A DNA stretch of 64,000 bases from Betaproteobacteria bacterium. Lineage in GTDB: Bacteria; Pseudomonadota; Gammaproteobacteria; Burkholderiales; SG8-41. Positions 28,354 through 36,246 of this stretch are shown piece by piece. Position 1 is the stretch's first letter; the number at the start of each line of letters is the position of its first letter. The notes under the pieces are model-generated. The model did no database searches. It worked only from the letters and a program-made list of their open reading frames with translations, and was not told the origin of the DNA. The DNA lies in NCBI GenBank assembly GCA_016868035.1, contig VGID01000011.1:1-64000 (forward strand). The letters run 5' to 3'. The position numbers and the translations under genes were made by a program.

Positions 28354-28365
28354 CGACAAAAAAGG

Positions 28366-28712
28366 GCAGTCCGCCGCTTCCTGCCGCGAGTTGGCCCCGG
28401 CATGCCAACTTGCCACTGACCTATCACCCGGTGCCCGACATCGCCTGAGCTGCCGTACCGAAGCGACGCCTCGAATGAGCCGAGGTACGGGGAAGCGCTT
28501 GCCTTACCCTCGCGGTTGGAATAGATTGCGCGGTAATTGACCGCTGATCCCGCTCACGACCCGCCTGGATCGCGGTTTTCTCCCGGGGAGGAGAAAACCA
28601 GCATGAACATAAGGCCTATTATGCGCACTCGGCGAGCGCTGTCACACCGGCTCCCGGCGCACGGGCTCGGCGCCGCGAAATCGCAGGCGGATTGATTTTC
28701 TTATCGCTTCAC
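28366..28712 (+). repeat. Direct repeat, left copy: 3' end of an IS91-type element
   Basis: The first 84 nt (28366-28449) are identical to 35904-35987. They encode the last residues of the IS91-type transposase seen in the right copy, ending HPVPDIA and TGA. Homology continues imperfectly for about 260 nt (shared tracts ATAGATTGC, AGCATGAACATAAG, GGATTGATTTTC). This copy is truncated next to the glpD start and carries a strong hairpin that the right copy lacks. The stretch from 28354 to 28822 holds no other gene. Confidence 0.8.
28574..28599 (+). other. Perfect 10-bp stem hairpin in the left IS91-type end
   Basis: GGTTTTCTCC (28574-28583) and GGAGAAAACC (28590-28599) form a perfect stem with a 6-nt loop. 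It is followed by AGCATGAACATAAG, conserved in both repeat copies. Hairpins near the 3' end are typical of oriIS in IS91-family elements. The right copy has no equivalent stem. It could alternatively act as a terminator, but no T-run follows. Confidence 0.55.
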
Positions 28713-28822
28713 CTCACAACCCGGCCAAAGGGCCATCCCGGACGTATCCATGCTGCTGGGGGGACGGATGACGATGGTGTTCTCCCACATCGGAAGAGAA
28801 CAACCAACCTGAGGAAGTGACG

Positions 28823-30067
28823 ATGCCCGTGCGCAGCTACGCGTGGCCACCTGGCCATTGGGATTGGTATCAGCATTTGGCTTTTAAGCACGGCGTGCGT
28901 GCCGGCGACATGGTGTTTGTTGGGGGCCAGGTTGACAAGTCACCCGCTGGCGAGCCTTTGCACGCCTCTGATCTTGCTACCCAGACTGCTGTGGTCATCC
29001 GGCACATCGACACAGTCCTGCGGGAATTCGGGGCGGGGCTGGCCAATGTCGTCAAGCTGGTGGCTTTCTATGCCACTGATGGTCACGTGGACGAAACCGC
29101 CTTCCTCGCTGACATTGGACGGCACATTCTGGCACGCGGTGGGGTCCCGGACAACGGGGGGCCGGTCATTACTCTAGTACCCCTACCCTGTTTGGCGTTA
29201 CCCGGGATGATGGTGGAAATCGAGGCTATTGCAATGATCGGTATGGACGCGAAACGGCTCGCGAGAACGACCGCCAACCCCAGGGCTCTGTCTCCGCTGC
29301 CACCACCGTTCAGCCACGGCATACGCTGTGGTGAGCACATCTGGACCTCCGCGCAGTGGAGTTCGGCGGCAGACGGCACTCGCCAATATGCCCAGGATCT
29401 CGTGGGACAGACCGCCGTCGCCATGAAGCGTGTGGAGCAGATTCTCGCCGCTCTGGGTGTGGATCTTGATGACATCGTCAAGCTGGCCACGTGGTACCGG
29501 GGGGACGGCACGCGTGCCACTTGGGAGCCGGCGGCGCTTAAGCGGGCGACCTACTTCACAGCGCCGGGGCCCACGCTGAGCGCGTTGCCGACGCCCCGCC
29601 TCCCGCACGGGGACATGACACGGGTAGATGCGTGGGCTATGCGCGGCGCCGACGGCCATCGGCTGGCGCGCACCTATGCCCAGCTCCACGATGTCTCGCA
29701 GTGGCCTGCGGGTCTGCCTTCTGCCGCCGGACTGCAATGCGGCGAGTTCGTCTTCGTCGGCCAGCAGGTGGCCCTCGATAGCCATGGCCAGCCGGTCGCG
29801 CCTGGCGATCTCCTGGAGCAAACACGTCGTGTCATGGAGTCGACGCGCACGGTGTTGTCATCATTCGGACTCACGTTGGACGACATGGTCAAGCAGAACA
29901 GCTTCTACCAAGGCCAGGCGGATCCCGAGATCATCGTGAGTAACCAGCGCTATCGCTCATCGTTTTATAGCGAACCAGCAGGAGCCTCAACGGGCGTGCC
30001 CCTGCCGTGCCTGCCCCTCGCAGACCTATTGGTCTCGGTGGAAACGGTGGCGATGACGCCACGCTGA
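28823..30067 (+). CDS. Three-domain RidA-like (YjgF/YER057c/UK114) fusion protein
   Basis: The 414 aa contain three tandem RidA-like repeats, at about 20-139, 165-274 and 300-411. Each has the family features: a VFVGGQV/IWTSAQW/VFVGQQV strand, a VIRHIDTVLREFG-type helix, NVVKLVAFY/DIVKLATWY/DMVKQNSFY, and a C-terminal LP...VEIEAIA-like strand. RidA proteins are homotrimers with active sites at subunit interfaces, so this chain could fold as an intramolecular pseudo-trimer. The catalytic Arg of canonical imine deaminases (before the LP motif) is absent in all three repeats, so classical 2-aminoacrylate deaminase activity is unlikely. ATG 28823 is favoured by GAGGAAG 6 nt upstream; GTG 28817 is possible. 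Confidence 0.85.
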   Translation: MPVRSYAWPPGHWDWYQHLAFKHGVRAGDMVFVGGQVDKSPAGEPLHASDLATQTAVVIRHIDTVLREFGAGLANVVKLVAFYATDGHVDETAFLADIGRHILARGGVPDNGGPVITLVPLPCLALPGMMVEIEAIAMIGMDAKRLARTTANPRALSPLPPPFSHGIRCGEHIWTSAQWSSAADGTRQYAQDLVGQTAVAMKRVEQILAALGVDLDDIVKLATWYRGDGTRATWEPAALKRATYFTAPGPTLSALPTPRLPHGDMTRVDAWAMRGADGHRLARTYAQLHDVSQWPAGLPSAAGLQCGEFVFVGQQVALDSHGQPVAPGDLLEQTRRVMESTRTVLSSFGLTLDDMVKQNSFYQGQADPEIIVSNQRYRSSFYSEPAGASTGVPLPCLPLADLLVSVETVAMTPR

Positions 30068-30228
30068 ACGAACACCCAGACTGCGGGGGGTATACTGCGG
30101 CCATCTGGTTGGAAATCCGACCCTCTCCAAGCTTCTCTGTCATTGGAAGAAGGGCTCAAAATCGAGGAACACGGGCGTGTTACCTCTGTGTTTACGATTC
30201 ACGCCATCGCCTATCGAGGAGTAATGCT

Positions 30229-31230
30229 ATGCGATTCGGAGTTGGGATCTTCGGAAATCAACCGGTCACAACAATCGTGCGTCAGGTCCAGCTCGCCGAG
30301 GCTTTAGGCTATGACACAGCGTGGATCGTCGACTCGCAGCTCGTTTGCCGGGAGCTGTATGTCACACTGACGGCTTGCGTTCTCGCGACATCACGGATTC
30401 GGATCGGTCCAGGCATCACCGTGCCATACATCCGGCATCCTTCAGTGACGGCCAGCGCCATTGTGAGTCTCAACGAGCTGGCGGAAGGGCGGGTGCTGCT
30501 GGGCGTCGGCACCGGAGACAGCTCTGTAGGGACCCTGGGTGTGAAGCCAGCCCGCATTGCCGGGCTGGAGGAGTTTGTACGAACAACGCGCCGGCTTCTC
30601 GCTAACGAGTCTGTCACGTTCGAGGGCGGTCTCGAGGGCAAGATCGCCTGGCTCGAGCGCGCCCATGACATCCCAATCTATGTGGCCGCCTCGGGGCCCA
30701 AGATGCTCGAGGCCGCTGGTCGCCTGGGCGATGGTGTACTGATGCATTGCGGAATCGCACCGCCTATTCTCGAGGCCGGCTTAGCATATGTGCGTGCAGG
30801 TGCCCGCGCGGCGGAGAAGTCCATAGAGGATCTTGACGTGATCTGCTGGGCGCACACCTGTGTCGCCCGTGATCGCCGCGCAGCACGAGAGCATGTCCGC
30901 GGCCGGGTGACGGCCGCCTTGCGCCATCCGCTTCCGATCCCGCTCGGCGAGGAGGATCTGGCCGTCGTCCGGAAGATTCGGGAGGAGTACAATTTTTTCG
31001 AGCACGCCACGGCGGCGGCGAAGCACCGGACCCTCGCGCCTGACCGGTTCATCGACCTTCTCGCTCTGGCCGGCACGCCGGATGAGGTTGCCGAAACAGT
31101 GCGCGCGATTGCGCGCGTGCAGGGTATCGGCCACATTGTCATTACGCCGCAGGTCCCAGGGGATGGCTTCCCCGAACGCGAGGAGATCTTCCGACTCTTC
31201 GCCGAGGAAGTGATGAGCCGCATCGCCTGA
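30229..31230 (+). CDS. LLM-class flavin-dependent oxidoreductase
   Basis: A 333-aa luciferase-like (alpha/beta)8 barrel protein starting MRFGVGIFGNQP. Family features are TSRIRIGPGITVPYIRHP, SLNELAEGRVLLGVGTGD (about 83-100) and PIYVAASGPKMLEAAGRLGDGV (about 147-168). Members are FMN monooxygenases (SsuD, RutA type) or F420-dependent reductases such as MTHMPT reductase; the cofactor cannot be decided here. GAGGAG precedes the ATG at close range. It is 14 nt upstream of the ABC ATPase gene, so one transcription unit is likely and a role in metabolising the imported substrate is inferred. Confidence 0.88.
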   Translation: MRFGVGIFGNQPVTTIVRQVQLAEALGYDTAWIVDSQLVCRELYVTLTACVLATSRIRIGPGITVPYIRHPSVTASAIVSLNELAEGRVLLGVGTGDSSVGTLGVKPARIAGLEEFVRTTRRLLANESVTFEGGLEGKIAWLERAHDIPIYVAASGPKMLEAAGRLGDGVLMHCGIAPPILEAGLAYVRAGARAAEKSIEDLDVICWAHTCVARDRRAAREHVRGRVTAALRHPLPIPLGEEDLAVVRKIREEYNFFEHATAAAKHRTLAPDRFIDLLALAGTPDEVAETVRAIARVQGIGHIVITPQVPGDGFPEREEIFRLFAEEVMSRIA

Positions 31231-31244
31231 CCTACTGCATTCCA

Positions 31245-32033
31245 ATGGCGAGAATCGAGACGCAAAGACTTTCGCATCATTACATCGACGCAGCTGGAGG
31301 CACGGTGGCAACGCTCGACGACATCTCGTTGAGCGTCGAGCATGGACGCTTCCTCACCATCGTGGGACCGTCGGGATGCGGTAAGACGACACTCCTGAAC
31401 ATCATCGCAGGGTTCGTCACGCCGACCAACGGTGAGGTCTTGATTGATGGCCGACGCGTGACCGGTGCCGGCCCCGAACGGGGCGTTGTTTTTCAGGGCT
31501 ATGCACTCTTTGACTGGCTGACAGTCAAGAAAAACATCGAGTTCGGGCTGCGAATGCGTGGCATCCCGGAGCGCGAGCGGGCGGCAAAGGCTGATGAGTA
31601 CTTGGCGCTCGTCGGGCTACGAAAGTTCAGTCATCGTTACCCCTATGAGCTCTCCGGCGGCATGAAGCAGCGGGTGGCAATTGCTCGGGCACTGGCGAAT
31701 GACCCCGAGATTCTGCTGATGGATGAGCCGTTCGCCAGCTTGGACGCCCAAACCCGAGAGATCATGCAAGAGGAGCTGCTGCGCATCTGGGAGCGCACGG
31801 GAAAAACGATCCTTTTCATCACCCACTCCATTGAGGAGGCTATCTACCTCTCGACGGACGTCGCGGTCATGACGTTCCGACCTGGCCATCTCAAGTGTAC
31901 TTTAAGGGTGGAGTTGCCGTATCCGCGGGGGGATTTCAACATCCGCACGGCTCCGCGCTTCGTGGAGCTGGAAAAGGTCATTCACCACCTAATTCGTGAA
32001 GAGATCGCGAAGCATGAGATGGAAGACGAATAA
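31245..32033 (+). CDS. ABC transporter ATPase, NitT/TauT/SsuB type
   Basis: Cytoplasmic ATP-binding subunit, 262 aa, with Walker A GPSGCGKTT (about 43-51), Q-loop VVFQGYALF, signature LSGGMKQR (about 138-145), Walker B ILLMDEPFASLD and H-loop ITHSIEEA. The closest general class is the nitrate/taurine/aliphatic sulfonate importer family, judging also from its permease and binding protein. It overlaps the permease gene by 20 nt. Confidence 0.92.
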   Translation: MARIETQRLSHHYIDAAGGTVATLDDISLSVEHGRFLTIVGPSGCGKTTLLNIIAGFVTPTNGEVLIDGRRVTGAGPERGVVFQGYALFDWLTVKKNIEFGLRMRGIPERERAAKADEYLALVGLRKFSHRYPYELSGGMKQRVAIARALANDPEILLMDEPFASLDAQTREIMQEELLRIWERTGKTILFITHSIEEAIYLSTDVAVMTFRPGHLKCTLRVELPYPRGDFNIRTAPRFVELEKVIHHLIREEIAKHEMEDE

Positions 32034-32817
32034 CGTTCGCGTCGGTGGGTCCGACCGGTCGCGGACTCTGCTGATTGGAGCGGCGTCTGTGATCCTTGGC
32101 CTGGTGCTCTGGACGGCGGTGACGAAGAGCGGGCTGGTCTCGACGCGCTTTCTTGCCTCTCCGATCGAGATCGTCATCCAGTTCTGGCAGCTCCTCCAGA
32201 AGGGCTACGGCGGGACGCCGTTCTACGTACACGTCGGCGTCAGTCTGTACCGGACACTCCTGGGTTTCGCGCTTGCCGTCGTTGCGGGTGTTTCGCTAGG
32301 ACTCATGATCGGCTACGTGTCCGCCGTGGCCGCTGCCGTTTCCCCGTGGCTCGCCTTCCTCCGCCCCATCCCAGCCATCGCCTTTGTTCCACTTGTGATC
32401 CTCTGGTTCGGCATCGGTGAGTTTTCGAAGATTTCGCTGATTTTTCTCGCATCGTTCCTTTACATTACCCTCAACACCGCAGTCGGCGTAAAGAGTGTGC
32501 AACTTCAACTCCTACGGGCAGCCTCGAGCCTAGGCGCCGGCCAGCGACAAATGTTCTTGCACGTCATATTCCCAGCGGCGCTGCCGCAGATCTTCACCGG
32601 CATCCGGGTGGGTTGCGCGCTGAGTTGGGCCCTTGTTGTGGCCGCTGAGTTGGTCGCCGCTCAGAGCGGTCTTGGGTACATGATCATGGATGCTTCGACC
32701 TTCTTCCGGGTCACCGATGTCTACGTTGGCGTGATAACGATCGGAGTCATCGGCATGGTGCTGGAGGCTCTCATCGTCGCGATCGAGCGACGCGTCGTGC
32801 ACTGGCGGGGCAAATGA
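32014..32817 (+). CDS. ABC transporter permease, TauC/SsuC type
   Basis: Inner-membrane permease of 267 aa with about six hydrophobic segments (first at 18-37, last near 235-255). The cytoplasmic EAA-like loop that contacts the ATPase is LRAASSLGAGQRQMFLHVIFPAALPQIFTGIRVG (quoted by features: AASSLGAG then FPAALPQIFTG, about 172-200). I prefer ATG 32014; an in-frame GTG at 31996 would add six residues. The gene order ATPase-permease, with the binding protein beyond an intron relic, suggests one importer. Confidence 0.9.
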   Translation: MRWKTNNVRVGGSDRSRTLLIGAASVILGLVLWTAVTKSGLVSTRFLASPIEIVIQFWQLLQKGYGGTPFYVHVGVSLYRTLLGFALAVVAGVSLGLMIGYVSAVAAAVSPWLAFLRPIPAIAFVPLVILWFGIGEFSKISLIFLASFLYITLNTAVGVKSVQLQLLRAASSLGAGQRQMFLHVIFPAALPQIFTGIRVGCALSWALVVAAELVAAQSGLGYMIMDASTFFRVTDVYVGVITIGVIGMVLEALIVAIERRVVHWRGK

Positions 32818-32829
32818 ACTTCGGAGCGT

Positions 32830-33540
32830 CGAAGTAGGAGTAGGAATGATGATTACCATGCACCCTCCACAGATCCGGACGAGCGGCATTCGCGCGTCCG
32901 GCTGTTGCCTCACGGTGATGCGCCAAGGCGAAGATAAGGATGACACGCGCGCGCAGGAGGGGGCCAGCGCTTGAGCAGGCGGCGCATGCGTTCCCAGCGC
33001 GGGCACGCGTTGTGGCTGCGCCGACACAGCGCACGATACCACTACCGCCCGACGCAGAAGCGAAACAAATGCAACGTTGGGCTGTTCATGAGGCACACTG
33101 TAGTAGCCGATGTGTCCACGCACAACCGTGCCCTACCACTGTCCCACTGCGGGTGTGGGCTGATGCAGGCGTCGCCGCAGTTCGGCTTTCACCGCTCTGA
33201 GCTTCGCCTGCAAGCGCTTGCGCATCGTCTGCCGCAGCACCGTTAAGCATCCATTGCTTCGCTTGGTCGCGCGAATATGCATGAAGCCAAGGAAGTTGAA
33301 CGTGTCGGGCTTTCCCAAGGCGGCTTGCCTGCAATCGTTGGATCACAAAACGGCCGAACTCCAGCAGTTGGGTCTTTTTTGGGCTGCAGTTTCAGTGTAA
33401 ACTTGCTCTACCTTGGACGAGTTCCGCCCAAACCGCTCGGCGTCAGACTTAACTGGAATCCGAGCACGATATCGTGTGGGTCGCTGAGCCTTCACCGTAT
33501 AACTCTTTCGTTGGACCATACGTCGCCGGTTTAACCCGGC
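32830..33540 (-). pseudogene. Decayed group II intron reverse transcriptase/maturase fragment
   Basis: Read on the minus strand, pieces of a group II intron-encoded protein appear in order across several frames: DIVLGFQ just after the YADD position, DAERFG, KFTLKLQPKK, TQLLEFGRFVI, GKPDTFNFLGF (near 33310), TVLRQTMRKRLQAK and ELRRRLHQPTP (near 33190-33140), then the C-terminal maturase-like residues toward 32880. At least two frameshifts and one stop break it. The 5' part (about 33540-33475) resembles the leader found before such genes, joined directly to the YADD region, suggesting an internal deletion. It separates the permease from the binding-protein gene and fills the 739-nt gap. Confidence 0.7.
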
Positions 33541-33556
33541 GCAGAAGGAGAAAGAC

Positions 33557-34564
33557 ATGATGAGGCGAGCAATGGTCGTCATACTATCCGCGCTGGTGCT
33601 GACATCCGTATCACCCATAGCCCCCGCCGCGGACAACAAAGTTCGGATCGGCTTTCAGCCTGGCACGTCGCCGCGCTTTTTCGTGGCGCGGGACCACGGC
33701 ATGTTCAAGAAAGTGGGCTTGACCGCCGAGTACGTCCAGTTCATCGCGGGGCCCCCGATGCTATCGGCGTTGGAGACCGGGACGATCGACATGGCATTCA
33801 TGACGACGGCCCCGGCCATCTTCGGCTTGGCTCAGGGAATCGATTATCGTGTGTTCTTCGTCGAAGCTGATGCGTCCCAGTCTGTCGCGCTAGTGTCAAC
33901 GAAGCGCGCCGGCATCAAGACGCTCGCGGAGCAGAGAGGCAAACGCATCGGCGTGCAGTTTGGGACTTCTGCGCACTATGCCCTGCTCCGTTCGCTCGAA
34001 GCCGCCAAGCTCAAGGAGACTGACCTCAAGATTCTCGACATGCAGGCGAGCGTTATCGTTCCCGCTTTCCTCAAGGGGAATATCGACGGTGGATGGGCCT
34101 GGGATCCCTGGGTGGCGAGAATGCAAGCGGAGGGCGGCTCGATGGTGTGGGCGCTGTCGGATCAGCGGCTGCCAATGCCCCTCGTTTGGGTCGTGCGGAC
34201 CGCTTGGCTCAACAGCAACCGCGACACCGTGCAGTTGTTCATCAAGGCGATGGAGCTATCCCATGCGTACCTGATGGAAAACCCCAAGGAGGGGATAGCG
34301 TCGCTCGGCCAGGTGTTCGGCGTTAATGAGGAGCTCGCGAAGCAGATCTACAACCGTATTGAAGTCCCGAGCATCAAGGAGCAGGTTACAGGGTACGTCG
34401 GCGCCCTGGGAACATCGAGCACCAAGGCGACGTCCGGCATGGCGACGCACATGAGCGACTTGGCGAGTTTCTTCTTTGCGCTCAAGAGGATCCCTGTGAA
34501 GCCGGACGTCATCAGAGCTATTGACCCCGGCCCTCTGGAAGCGTACACAGCGAAGAAGCGCTAA
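33557..34564 (+). CDS. ABC transporter substrate-binding protein, TauA/SsuA type
   Basis: Periplasmic binding protein, 335 aa, with a signal peptide ending near PAAD (about residue 25). The NMT1/SsuA-like fold follows: KVRIGFQPGTSPRFFVARDHGMF (features FQPGTSP and ARDHGMF), SALETGTIDMAFM, GKRIGVQFGTSAHYAL and AFLKGNIDGGWAWDPW. The WAWDPW motif recurs in taurine/sulfonate-type binding proteins. Good ribosome site GAAGGAGAAAG ahead of ATG 33557 (ATG 33560 also possible). It presumably delivers the substrate to the 31.2-32.8 kb transporter, though it now sits behind the intron relic. Confidence 0.88.
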   Translation: MMRRAMVVILSALVLTSVSPIAPAADNKVRIGFQPGTSPRFFVARDHGMFKKVGLTAEYVQFIAGPPMLSALETGTIDMAFMTTAPAIFGLAQGIDYRVFFVEADASQSVALVSTKRAGIKTLAEQRGKRIGVQFGTSAHYALLRSLEAAKLKETDLKILDMQASVIVPAFLKGNIDGGWAWDPWVARMQAEGGSMVWALSDQRLPMPLVWVVRTAWLNSNRDTVQLFIKAMELSHAYLMENPKEGIASLGQVFGVNEELAKQIYNRIEVPSIKEQVTGYVGALGTSSTKATSGMATHMSDLASFFFALKRIPVKPDVIRAIDPGPLEAYTAKKR

Positions 34565-34621
34565 TGTGAACACCGAGAGTGTCCTGTCGCTCACATGGAG
34601 CGATAGTGGAGCGGTGATCCG

Positions 34622-34850
34622 ACGAAATCGACATCCGGGCGGTCTACATCGACGGCATCGGCATCGCCGGTCAGATGATTGTCGTTGCCGTGGGCTGGAT
34701 GTAGTGGGAAGCCAAGCACCTGCTCGGCATCAAACCGGGCGACACGGACAATGCCTTTGGTGGTGGAAGGCGCTGCTGGCGGATTTAGCCAGGCGGCGGC
34801 ATTGGCAGGACAGACGGGCCCGTTGGTGATCGACGGTGTCGCTGCCTGAC
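34622..34850 (+). pseudogene. Mutator/IS256-family transposase relic
   Basis: In the frame from about 34622 one reads AVYIDGIGIAGQMIVVAVG then, after an in-frame TAG, KHLLGIKPGDTDNAF. A shift of frame then gives GQTGPLVIDG. These match, in order, the central catalytic region of Mutator-type transposases (YIDG, VAVG.D..G.KH.LG, GDTENA, VIDG). Both ends are missing and the fragment is broken, so it is inert. Confidence 0.65.
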
Positions 34851-35622
34851 TCGCTCCGGCCCGACGAGGTCCGATGGCGCGCCTTTCGTCGAGCGGGGCC
34901 ATATCATTTTCGTCGACGGGACGACGGAGAATACTTCGTAGGGAAGCGGTGACGTCAGTGTTGATCGTAGTGGTCGGGTAGGTGGGCGCGGTCGCCCGCG
35001 CCCAGCCCCCTAAGACATCCGACCCGCCCTCAGCACGTTTCACAATGTAGCGAGCATCCCAAGGGGCGCCCATTGTGAGAGGCTGCTGAGAGGTGACGCA
35101 CAGGCCAACTTGCCTTCGGTATAGCTTCGCGCGACTTCCCCGCTGAGCTCAGCATTTTCTTACCCGGCGCTACTGGAAAACAGGAATGCACGCAGCCAGG
35201 CGTTCCTGCCGCGTCGAATTCTTCAGCACACCTTGGCTGTGCCTCGTCCGCAGTCTTTCGAGCGGATAGCCCTGCTTCCGCGTTGTGAAGACCACCTAGC
35301 ACATTGCTTCATGTATCAACGCCGTCCACGTCGGTCTTCTTCCACCGACTCAGCCAGAACCGATTGCGACGCGGAACACATCATTGTGGCTCGGCGCCGC
35401 CAAAGCGTGGTATGGCGCGACAGCGGACTCCGCCCGTGCAACGCCGGCAAGCTGAACGACCGACATCCTGATGGGGAACGCCAGCAACAGCTCCATCCAG
35501 AAAAATCAGCGGCGCAAAGCATTGCAGGTCACACGTTCCGCGCAGTCTTCAAGATTGTCTCTCCTGTCGTATCAGGCGCTCTAACGAAAAACAAGGCGAG
35601 CTTTCGCCAGGCCCGCACACGA
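34851..35622. other. Gene-free decayed stretch inside the island
   Basis: About 770 nt without a credible gene. Short open frames on both strands (for example plus 35233-35667 and minus 35030-35302) lack ribosome sites and family resemblance. The material looks like remnants of mobile DNA between the Mutator relic and the IS91-type tail, but I could not identify its source. Confidence 0.5.
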
Positions 35623-35778
35623 TCAATGCACACGTGCCGACTGTGGAAGCGCTGTCTCCGCGCGTAACCGCCTCACCTCGTCAATCAGCCGGCGCAAGGC
35701 GCGCATCGTCTGCGCATCTGCATCGCATTCGCCGTCCTTCAGTCGGCGTTCGATCTCCTGCAATTCCGCCTCGTCCAT
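35623..35778 (-). CDS. Small hypothetical protein, 51 aa
   Basis: The minus-strand ATG at 35778 is preceded by AAAGGAGACAGC, an excellent ribosome site. The product begins MDEAELQEIERRLKDGE and contains RRLIDEVRRLRAE. It is a highly charged, helical protein predicted to form a short coiled coil, with a pattern like other small betaproteobacterial hypotheticals having a C-terminal EVxRLR helix. No function is recognised. It starts head-to-head with the IS91-type transposase tail on the other strand. Confidence 0.55.
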   Translation of the reverse strand: MDEAELQEIERRLKDGECDADAQTMRALRRLIDEVRRLRAETALPQSARVH

Positions 35779-35986
35779 GCTGTCTCCTTTGGAATGTCCC
35801 AAGTGTAACGGACCAATGCGGGTCATTGCGTTCATCGAGGATCCGGGCGTCATCCGGCGCATCCTCGAACACCTCGGATTGTGGGCGCCGCTCGCCACCG
35901 AGCGCAGTCCGCCGCTTCCTGCCGCGAGTTGGCCCCGGCATGCCAACTTGCCACTGACCTATCACCCGGTGCCCGACATCGCCTGA
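35777..35986 (+). pseudogene. IS91-type (Y2) transposase, C-terminal remnant
   Basis: The last 69 codons contain ECPKCNGPMRVIAFIEDP and VIRRILEHLGLW. These are the zinc-finger-like and helical C-terminal signature of IS91-type putative transposases, ending HPVPDIA. The catalytic Y2 domain and everything upstream of the CPKC motif are gone. Its final 27 or so codons are duplicated at 28366-28449, which identifies the direct repeats as ends of this element. Confidence 0.65.
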
Positions 35987-36246
35987 GAACCGCCTCGAAA
36001 AACCCGCGGCGTAGGACAGCGCGTGCCACCGTCCCGCGGTTGCAATAGATTGCCCAGTAATTCACTGCGGATCCCGCTCATGACCCACGCGGATCGTGGT
36101 CGTGTGCACAGGGCGGGGAAGGCAGCATGAACATAAGACCGCGTATTGCGGCAGCTGTCCCGCCCCCGCTCCCGGCGCTTCAGCTTGGCGCGGCGGGATT
36201 GTGACCGGATTGATTTTCGGGTGGATTGATTTCCTTCGCTTTACCC
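35904..36246 (+). repeat. Direct repeat, right copy: 3' end of an IS91-type element
   Basis: Same orientation as the left copy: 84 nt identical (35904-35987), then about 260 nt of diverged homology ending with two versions of GGATTGATTT (near 36207 and 36223). It adjoins the end of the atp operon. The gap from 35988 to 36319 contains only this element end and no gene. Confidence 0.8.

Follow-up and report, generated by a model that had tools for sequence, protein, structure and literature searches.

The window, by which we mean the whole 64,000-nucleotide stretch of DNA analysed here, encodes a protein of three diverged Rid domains that, judging from structure models, very likely folds as a single-chain pseudo-trimer. 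Triple-Rid architecture as such is already known, since a '3x-RidA' protein (EF_0115) was named in 2015 and read as presumably covalently linked trimer units (PMC4433059). The linked-trimer idea of the original prediction is thus not a novelty, although in the literature searched we did not find the term '3x-RidA' beyond that paper. What is new is probably the family itself: a distinct group of triple-Rid proteins that lacks the classical Arg and carries an HWxW motif, and that would constitute a separate, undescribed branch with a different chemistry. The member in the window lies on an acquired catabolic island.

Three Rid domains in one open reading frame

The open reading frame of the triple-Rid protein (Table 1) is not interrupted by any internal stop. 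A GTG at position 28817, 6 bases upstream of the ATG at 28823, is also open; we favoured the ATG as the start because it is aligned with M1 of the homologues. Pfam PF01042 matched three stretches of the translation with a whole-protein E-value of 1.5e-32 and 112.6 bits, which exceeds the gathering score of 27.3 and places the protein in the Rid (YjgF/YER057c/UK114) domain family. A Rid profile built without members of the triple-Rid family identified domains at amino acids 22-139 (38.4 bits), 147-272 (32.0 bits) and 299-411 (42.6 bits), and the maximum score of the shuffled window protein (n = 300) against this profile was 1.8 bits. The repeats share 28-32% identity with one another and 21-24% with E. 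coli RidA. The succession strand-strand-helix-strand-helix-strand-strand was seen three times in the DSSP assignment of the predicted model. Pfam, the independent profile and the secondary structure confirm the coordinates and the three Rid repeats in 414 residues that had been proposed before, and the protein shares with 3x-RidA the fusion of three Rid domains in one chain.

Table 1. Positions of the triple-Rid gene, its parts and the accompanying island features in the window.
Feature	Position	Strand	Evidence or remark
Left direct repeat of island	28364-28700		Starts just upstream of glpD start codon
Triple-Rid protein, 414 aa	28823-30067	+	ORF translation, PF01042, Rid profile, model
HWDW motif, aa 12-15, N-terminal to repeat 1	28856-28867	+	Homologue alignments
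Rid repeat 1, aa 20-140	28880-29242	+	Phe at Tyr17, Ile at Arg105 position; Gly31, Glu120 kept
Rid repeat 2, aa 147-272	29261-29638	+	Leu at Arg105, Arg267 at Glu120 position
Rid repeat 3, aa 299-411	29717-30055	+	Ser at both Arg105 and Glu120 positions
LLM-class oxidoreductase, Mer-like, 333 aa	30229-31230	+	PF00296, 1.1e-57
ABC transporter ATPase, taurine/nitrate type	31245-32033	+	Domain matches
ABC transporter permease, TauC/SsuC type	31996-32817	+	Domain matches
Substrate-binding protein, SsuA/NMT1 type	33557-34564	+	Domain matches
Right direct repeat of island	35904-36218		Sequence comparison with left repeat

The predicted fold matches single-chain YjgF-like proteins

The window protein was modelled with AlphaFold2 without templates, using an alignment of four homologues, which resulted in a pTM of 0.81 and a mean pLDDT of 72.5. 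A template-free model of a homologue with 35% identity (L029) reached a pTM of 0.81 and a pLDDT of 73.2. Foldseek searches of the PDB with both models placed chorismatases (FkbO/Hyg5/XanB2; PDB 5a3k, 5ag3 and 4bps) at the top, over the full length and with E-values of about 1e-12 to 1e-14. These alignments spanned ~363-413 columns, with TM-scores of 0.51-0.56 by query and 0.61-0.66 by target. The models are of medium confidence (pLDDT 72-73 from four-sequence alignments), a TM-score of ~0.55 is moderate, and the N-terminal HWDW segment has a pLDDT below 50. The next ranks were taken, again for both models, by cyanuric acid hydrolases, barbiturase and related Toblerone enzymes, followed by RutC/RidA monomers. 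Among the matches listed, the only full-length solved folds were those of chorismatases and Toblerone hydrolases. Chorismatases are single-chain YjgF-like pseudo-trimers, and Toblerone enzymes also consist of concatenated YjgF units. Since both match over the full length, the single-chain pseudo-trimer is supported as a prediction, and the intramolecular trimer suggested originally stands as a predicted fold.

The likeness to these enzymes lies in the fold. Identity to chorismatases is only 13-17%, and none was matched in PDB sequence searches; the Rid chains that these returned were all single-domain, without a triple-Rid chain among them. The second-best fold match, the Toblerone enzyme AtzD (cyanuric acid hydrolase/barbiturase), likewise has three concatenated YjgF-like units in one chain (PMC3758960), but its units are four-stranded, its Ser-Lys active site is central, it contains a metal site, and its TM-score to the model is only ~0.4. 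In Pfam, with E-values up to 0.001, the window protein matched PF01042 only and not the cyanuric acid hydrolase/barbiturase family.

The three pockets have diverged and lack Arg105

Seven pocket residues are conserved in Rid proteins, namely Tyr17, Gly31, Asn56, Asn88, Arg105, Pro114 and Glu120 (PMC1884159), and most of them are lost from the window repeats. While repeat 1 retains two of the seven, repeats 2 and 3 retain Pro114 only; Tyr17 is replaced by Phe in repeat 2 as in repeat 1, and Asn88 is absent from all three. The repeats differ in the pocket residues that they keep or lose, and the alignment thus supports the earlier expectation of three non-equivalent pockets. Gly, Leu and Ser had been named for the Arg105 position of repeats 1-3; Leu and Ser proved correct, and Gly was rejected in favour of Ile. 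The loss of Arg in all three repeats, also part of the original prediction, extends to the whole family: an alignment of ten members showed Arg at position 105 in 0 of 30 repeats.

A different basic residue is conserved. The Glu120 position of repeat 2 is occupied by Arg or Lys in nine of the ten members (Arg267 in the window, codon 29621-29623), and every one of the ten retains Glu120 in at least one repeat, which in the window is repeat 1. In TdcF, Glu120 is bonded to residue 107 across the subunit interface, so a basic residue at position 120 would point towards the wall of a neighbouring repeat from which Arg105 has been lost. By this analogy, the repeat-2 residue could take over carboxylate binding from Arg105, from the opposite wall of the pocket. 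Mainly because of this conserved Arg/Lys we do not conclude that the protein is a non-deaminase outright. The loss of Arg105 still favours the earlier view that it is probably one, but the strict form of that argument is weakened.

A family separate from canonical 3x-RidA

The closest full-length homologue (L028) shares 54% identity with the window protein in the alignment. Others share 33-35% (L029 and L030), 36% (L036, plasmid-borne, in Sinorhizobium) and 26-28% (L037 and L042 in Mesorhizobium and the rhizobial L038, L039 and L041), and an HWxW-type motif ahead of the repeats is common to the homologues. Neither 60 relatives nor the other genomes among 250 of the order contained a full-length orthologue. 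The 369 genomes of the class yielded two members, both in the same genome (L072/L076 and L075/L077), together with an N-terminal fragment (L074/L079) and a more distant triple-Rid protein (L073/L078). No further member was found in 398 genomes of the phylum, in which only two loci of the canonical 3x-RidA type were detected.

When a tree was built from single repeats, the repeat-2 sequences of nine members formed a clade of their own (support 100/97). The triple-Rid family was placed apart from canonical 3x-RidA (clade support 100/99), which grouped with E. coli RidA. According to this tree, the family seems to have been triplicated separately from 3x-RidA, and its repeats appear to have diverged before it spread. 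Both kinds of protein are chains of ~415 amino acids with three PF01042 domains and are interpreted as a linked trimer. However, canonical 3x-RidA has Arg at position 105 in five of the six repeats checked (Lys in one) and Gln at position 120, whereas Arg105 is missing from all repeats of the window family, the HWxW motif is present and the window repeats, with Ile, Leu and Ser, fall outside the clade of RidA and 3x-RidA. From these sequence comparisons the HWxW triple-Rid family looks rare and of separate origin.

In one Mesorhizobium homologue (L037:7959-9155) the repeat-2-like unit comes first, with 69 bits vs 37 and 49. This is suggestive of a circular permutation only, because repeats 1 and 3 are alike and any placement amounts to a rotation. 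The genome of the window contains three more triple-Rid open reading frames of other types (L009:6393-7718, L010:5802-7106 and L011:3591-5108), none of which has Arg105; each adjoins a TctC-type binding-protein gene or lies close to one.

Neighbouring genes point to nitrogen-compound catabolism

The best NCBIfam models for the LLM-class oxidoreductase of the window were F420-dependent Mer types, with scores below their cut-offs. CofD (TIGR01819) was detected above its NCBIfam cut-off in the same genome (L071:1940-3073, contig C40), which makes F420 plausible as the LLM cofactor, and the organism probably makes this coenzyme. PF01933 had been considered as an F420 marker and was rejected as unspecific, since it matches E. 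coli too; TIGR01819 was used instead. RutC of the E. coli pyrimidine pathway is comparable as a Rid protein of nitrogen catabolism that shares its operon with an LLM-class oxidoreductase, but it is single-domain and keeps Arg104. RutA was absent from the matches of the window LLM, which resembles Mer.

A constant linkage to LLM genes, which had been envisaged, was not observed: apart from the window, the identified genes in the family neighbourhoods read included no LLM oxidoreductase. Recurring neighbours are flavin/F420 or Rieske oxidoreductases, amidases, hydantoinases and transporters or importers. L028 and L076 both adjoin a pipecolate-oxidase-like FAD oxidoreductase, while L029 and L030 have a hydantoinase/carbamoylase-family amidase directly upstream. 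The neighbours of L036 are a LacI regulator, a deacetylase-family protein, a Rieske oxygenase and HyuA; those of L037 and L042 are an M24-type Xaa-Pro peptidase, an amino-acid importer and a threonine dehydratase. M20 amidase, aminotransferase and MttB-type genes occur as well. Judged by the encoded protein families, the theme common to these neighbourhoods is nitrogen-compound catabolism by oxidation and C-N hydrolysis. The more distant triple-Rid protein of the class is encoded in a same-strand run with MmgE/PrpD and CoA-transferase genes (L078:2800-7668), with an LLM oxidoreductase close upstream.

The gene lies on an acquired island

In the window genome, 7.9 kb (28364-36218) separate glpD from atpC. 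These two genes are adjacent, ~40-240 bases apart, in all six same-genus genomes with contigs spanning the junction, and also adjacent in one genome from another family of the order. The G+C content of the inserted stretch is 61%, compared with 65-67% in the flanks, and GC3 of its main genes is 0.67-0.78, compared with mostly 0.82-0.93. Imperfect direct repeats of ~330 bp were found at its two ends (~85 nt almost identical, the remainder 70-75%), and related copies occur elsewhere in the genome, on contigs C59, C9 and C53. Neither an integrase nor a transposase was identified within the island, and the few open frames tested in the ~1.3 kb downstream of the binding-protein gene (34565-35900) had no family match. 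By gene order and composition, the 7.9-kb stretch is an acquired island gained as a unit. A binning artefact is made less likely by the native sequence on both sides.

Proposed function and alternatives

In our best reading, to which we give an even chance, the protein is a pseudo-trimer of the HWxW family that acts as a pathway-specific hydrolase or tautomerase on an LLM-derived intermediate; we infer its chemistry, substrate and pocket roles. The linkage of three Rid units would leave the pockets free to specialise, none with the carboxylate-binding Arg105, repeat 1 with the retained Glu120 and repeat 2 presenting Arg at position 120. The adjacent SsuABC-like transporter would import a nitrogenous or sulfonate-like compound, and the Mer-like LLM oxidoreductase would act on it to produce an unstable imine, enamine or ring-opened C-N intermediate, which the triple-Rid protein would hydrolyse or tautomerise within this pathway. 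LLM genes are not a conserved neighbour, so a single locus stands behind the proposed pathway. A more tentative proposal, possible though we do not favour it, is that the separate Rid concatenation created a new enzyme family in which the basic residue of repeat 2, a Glu of another repeat and the HWxW motif form one new active site, and which was spread by horizontal gene transfer in catabolic islands and plasmids. Such a site would parallel those of chorismatases and Toblerone hydrolases.

It is rather unlikely that the protein is a non-catalytic, ligand-binding or chaperone-like Rid that senses or carries a pathway metabolite. That Arg105, Asn88 and the majority of the seven pocket residues are gone would fit this role, and since no deaminase activity has been shown for the Arg105-less subfamilies Rid4-7 (PMC8113886, PMC4433059), whose pockets have diverged as well, Rid-type catalysis may be absent here too. 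Rid4-7 are homotrimers of one domain and not three mutually diverged ones. Both the Glu at position 120, retained in at least one repeat of all ten members, and the enzyme-like recurrence of triple proteins in diverse catabolic clusters speak against a non-catalytic role. The architecture shared with the E. faecalis and Vibrio-type proteins, and the PLP dehydratases or amine oxidases beside some homologues, would agree with a typical 3x-RidA imine deaminase, in which a RidA trimer linked into one chain pre-empts 2-aminoacrylate-type damage. We consider this reading improbable, given the split between the two families in the tree and the lack of Arg105 and Asn88 in the window repeats; RidA Arg-to-Ala variants and RutC R104A have little or no activity (PMC4433059, PMC8113886). 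We are similarly sceptical of a ring-opening or C-O/C-N lyase that followed the Toblerone/chorismatase route to one new active site to which all three repeats contribute: the full-length fold matches and the hydantoinases and carbamoylase-type amidases near L028, L029 and L036 are consistent with it, but identity to chorismatases and Toblerone hydrolases is only 8-17%.

The fusion of homotrimer subunits, which form three identical pockets, lets every pocket evolve alone. With the classical catalytic Arg gone, the triple-Rid family would offer a natural test of this route, beside chorismatases and cyanuric acid hydrolases, and its function can be tested directly because members recur next to amine oxidases, amidases and importers.
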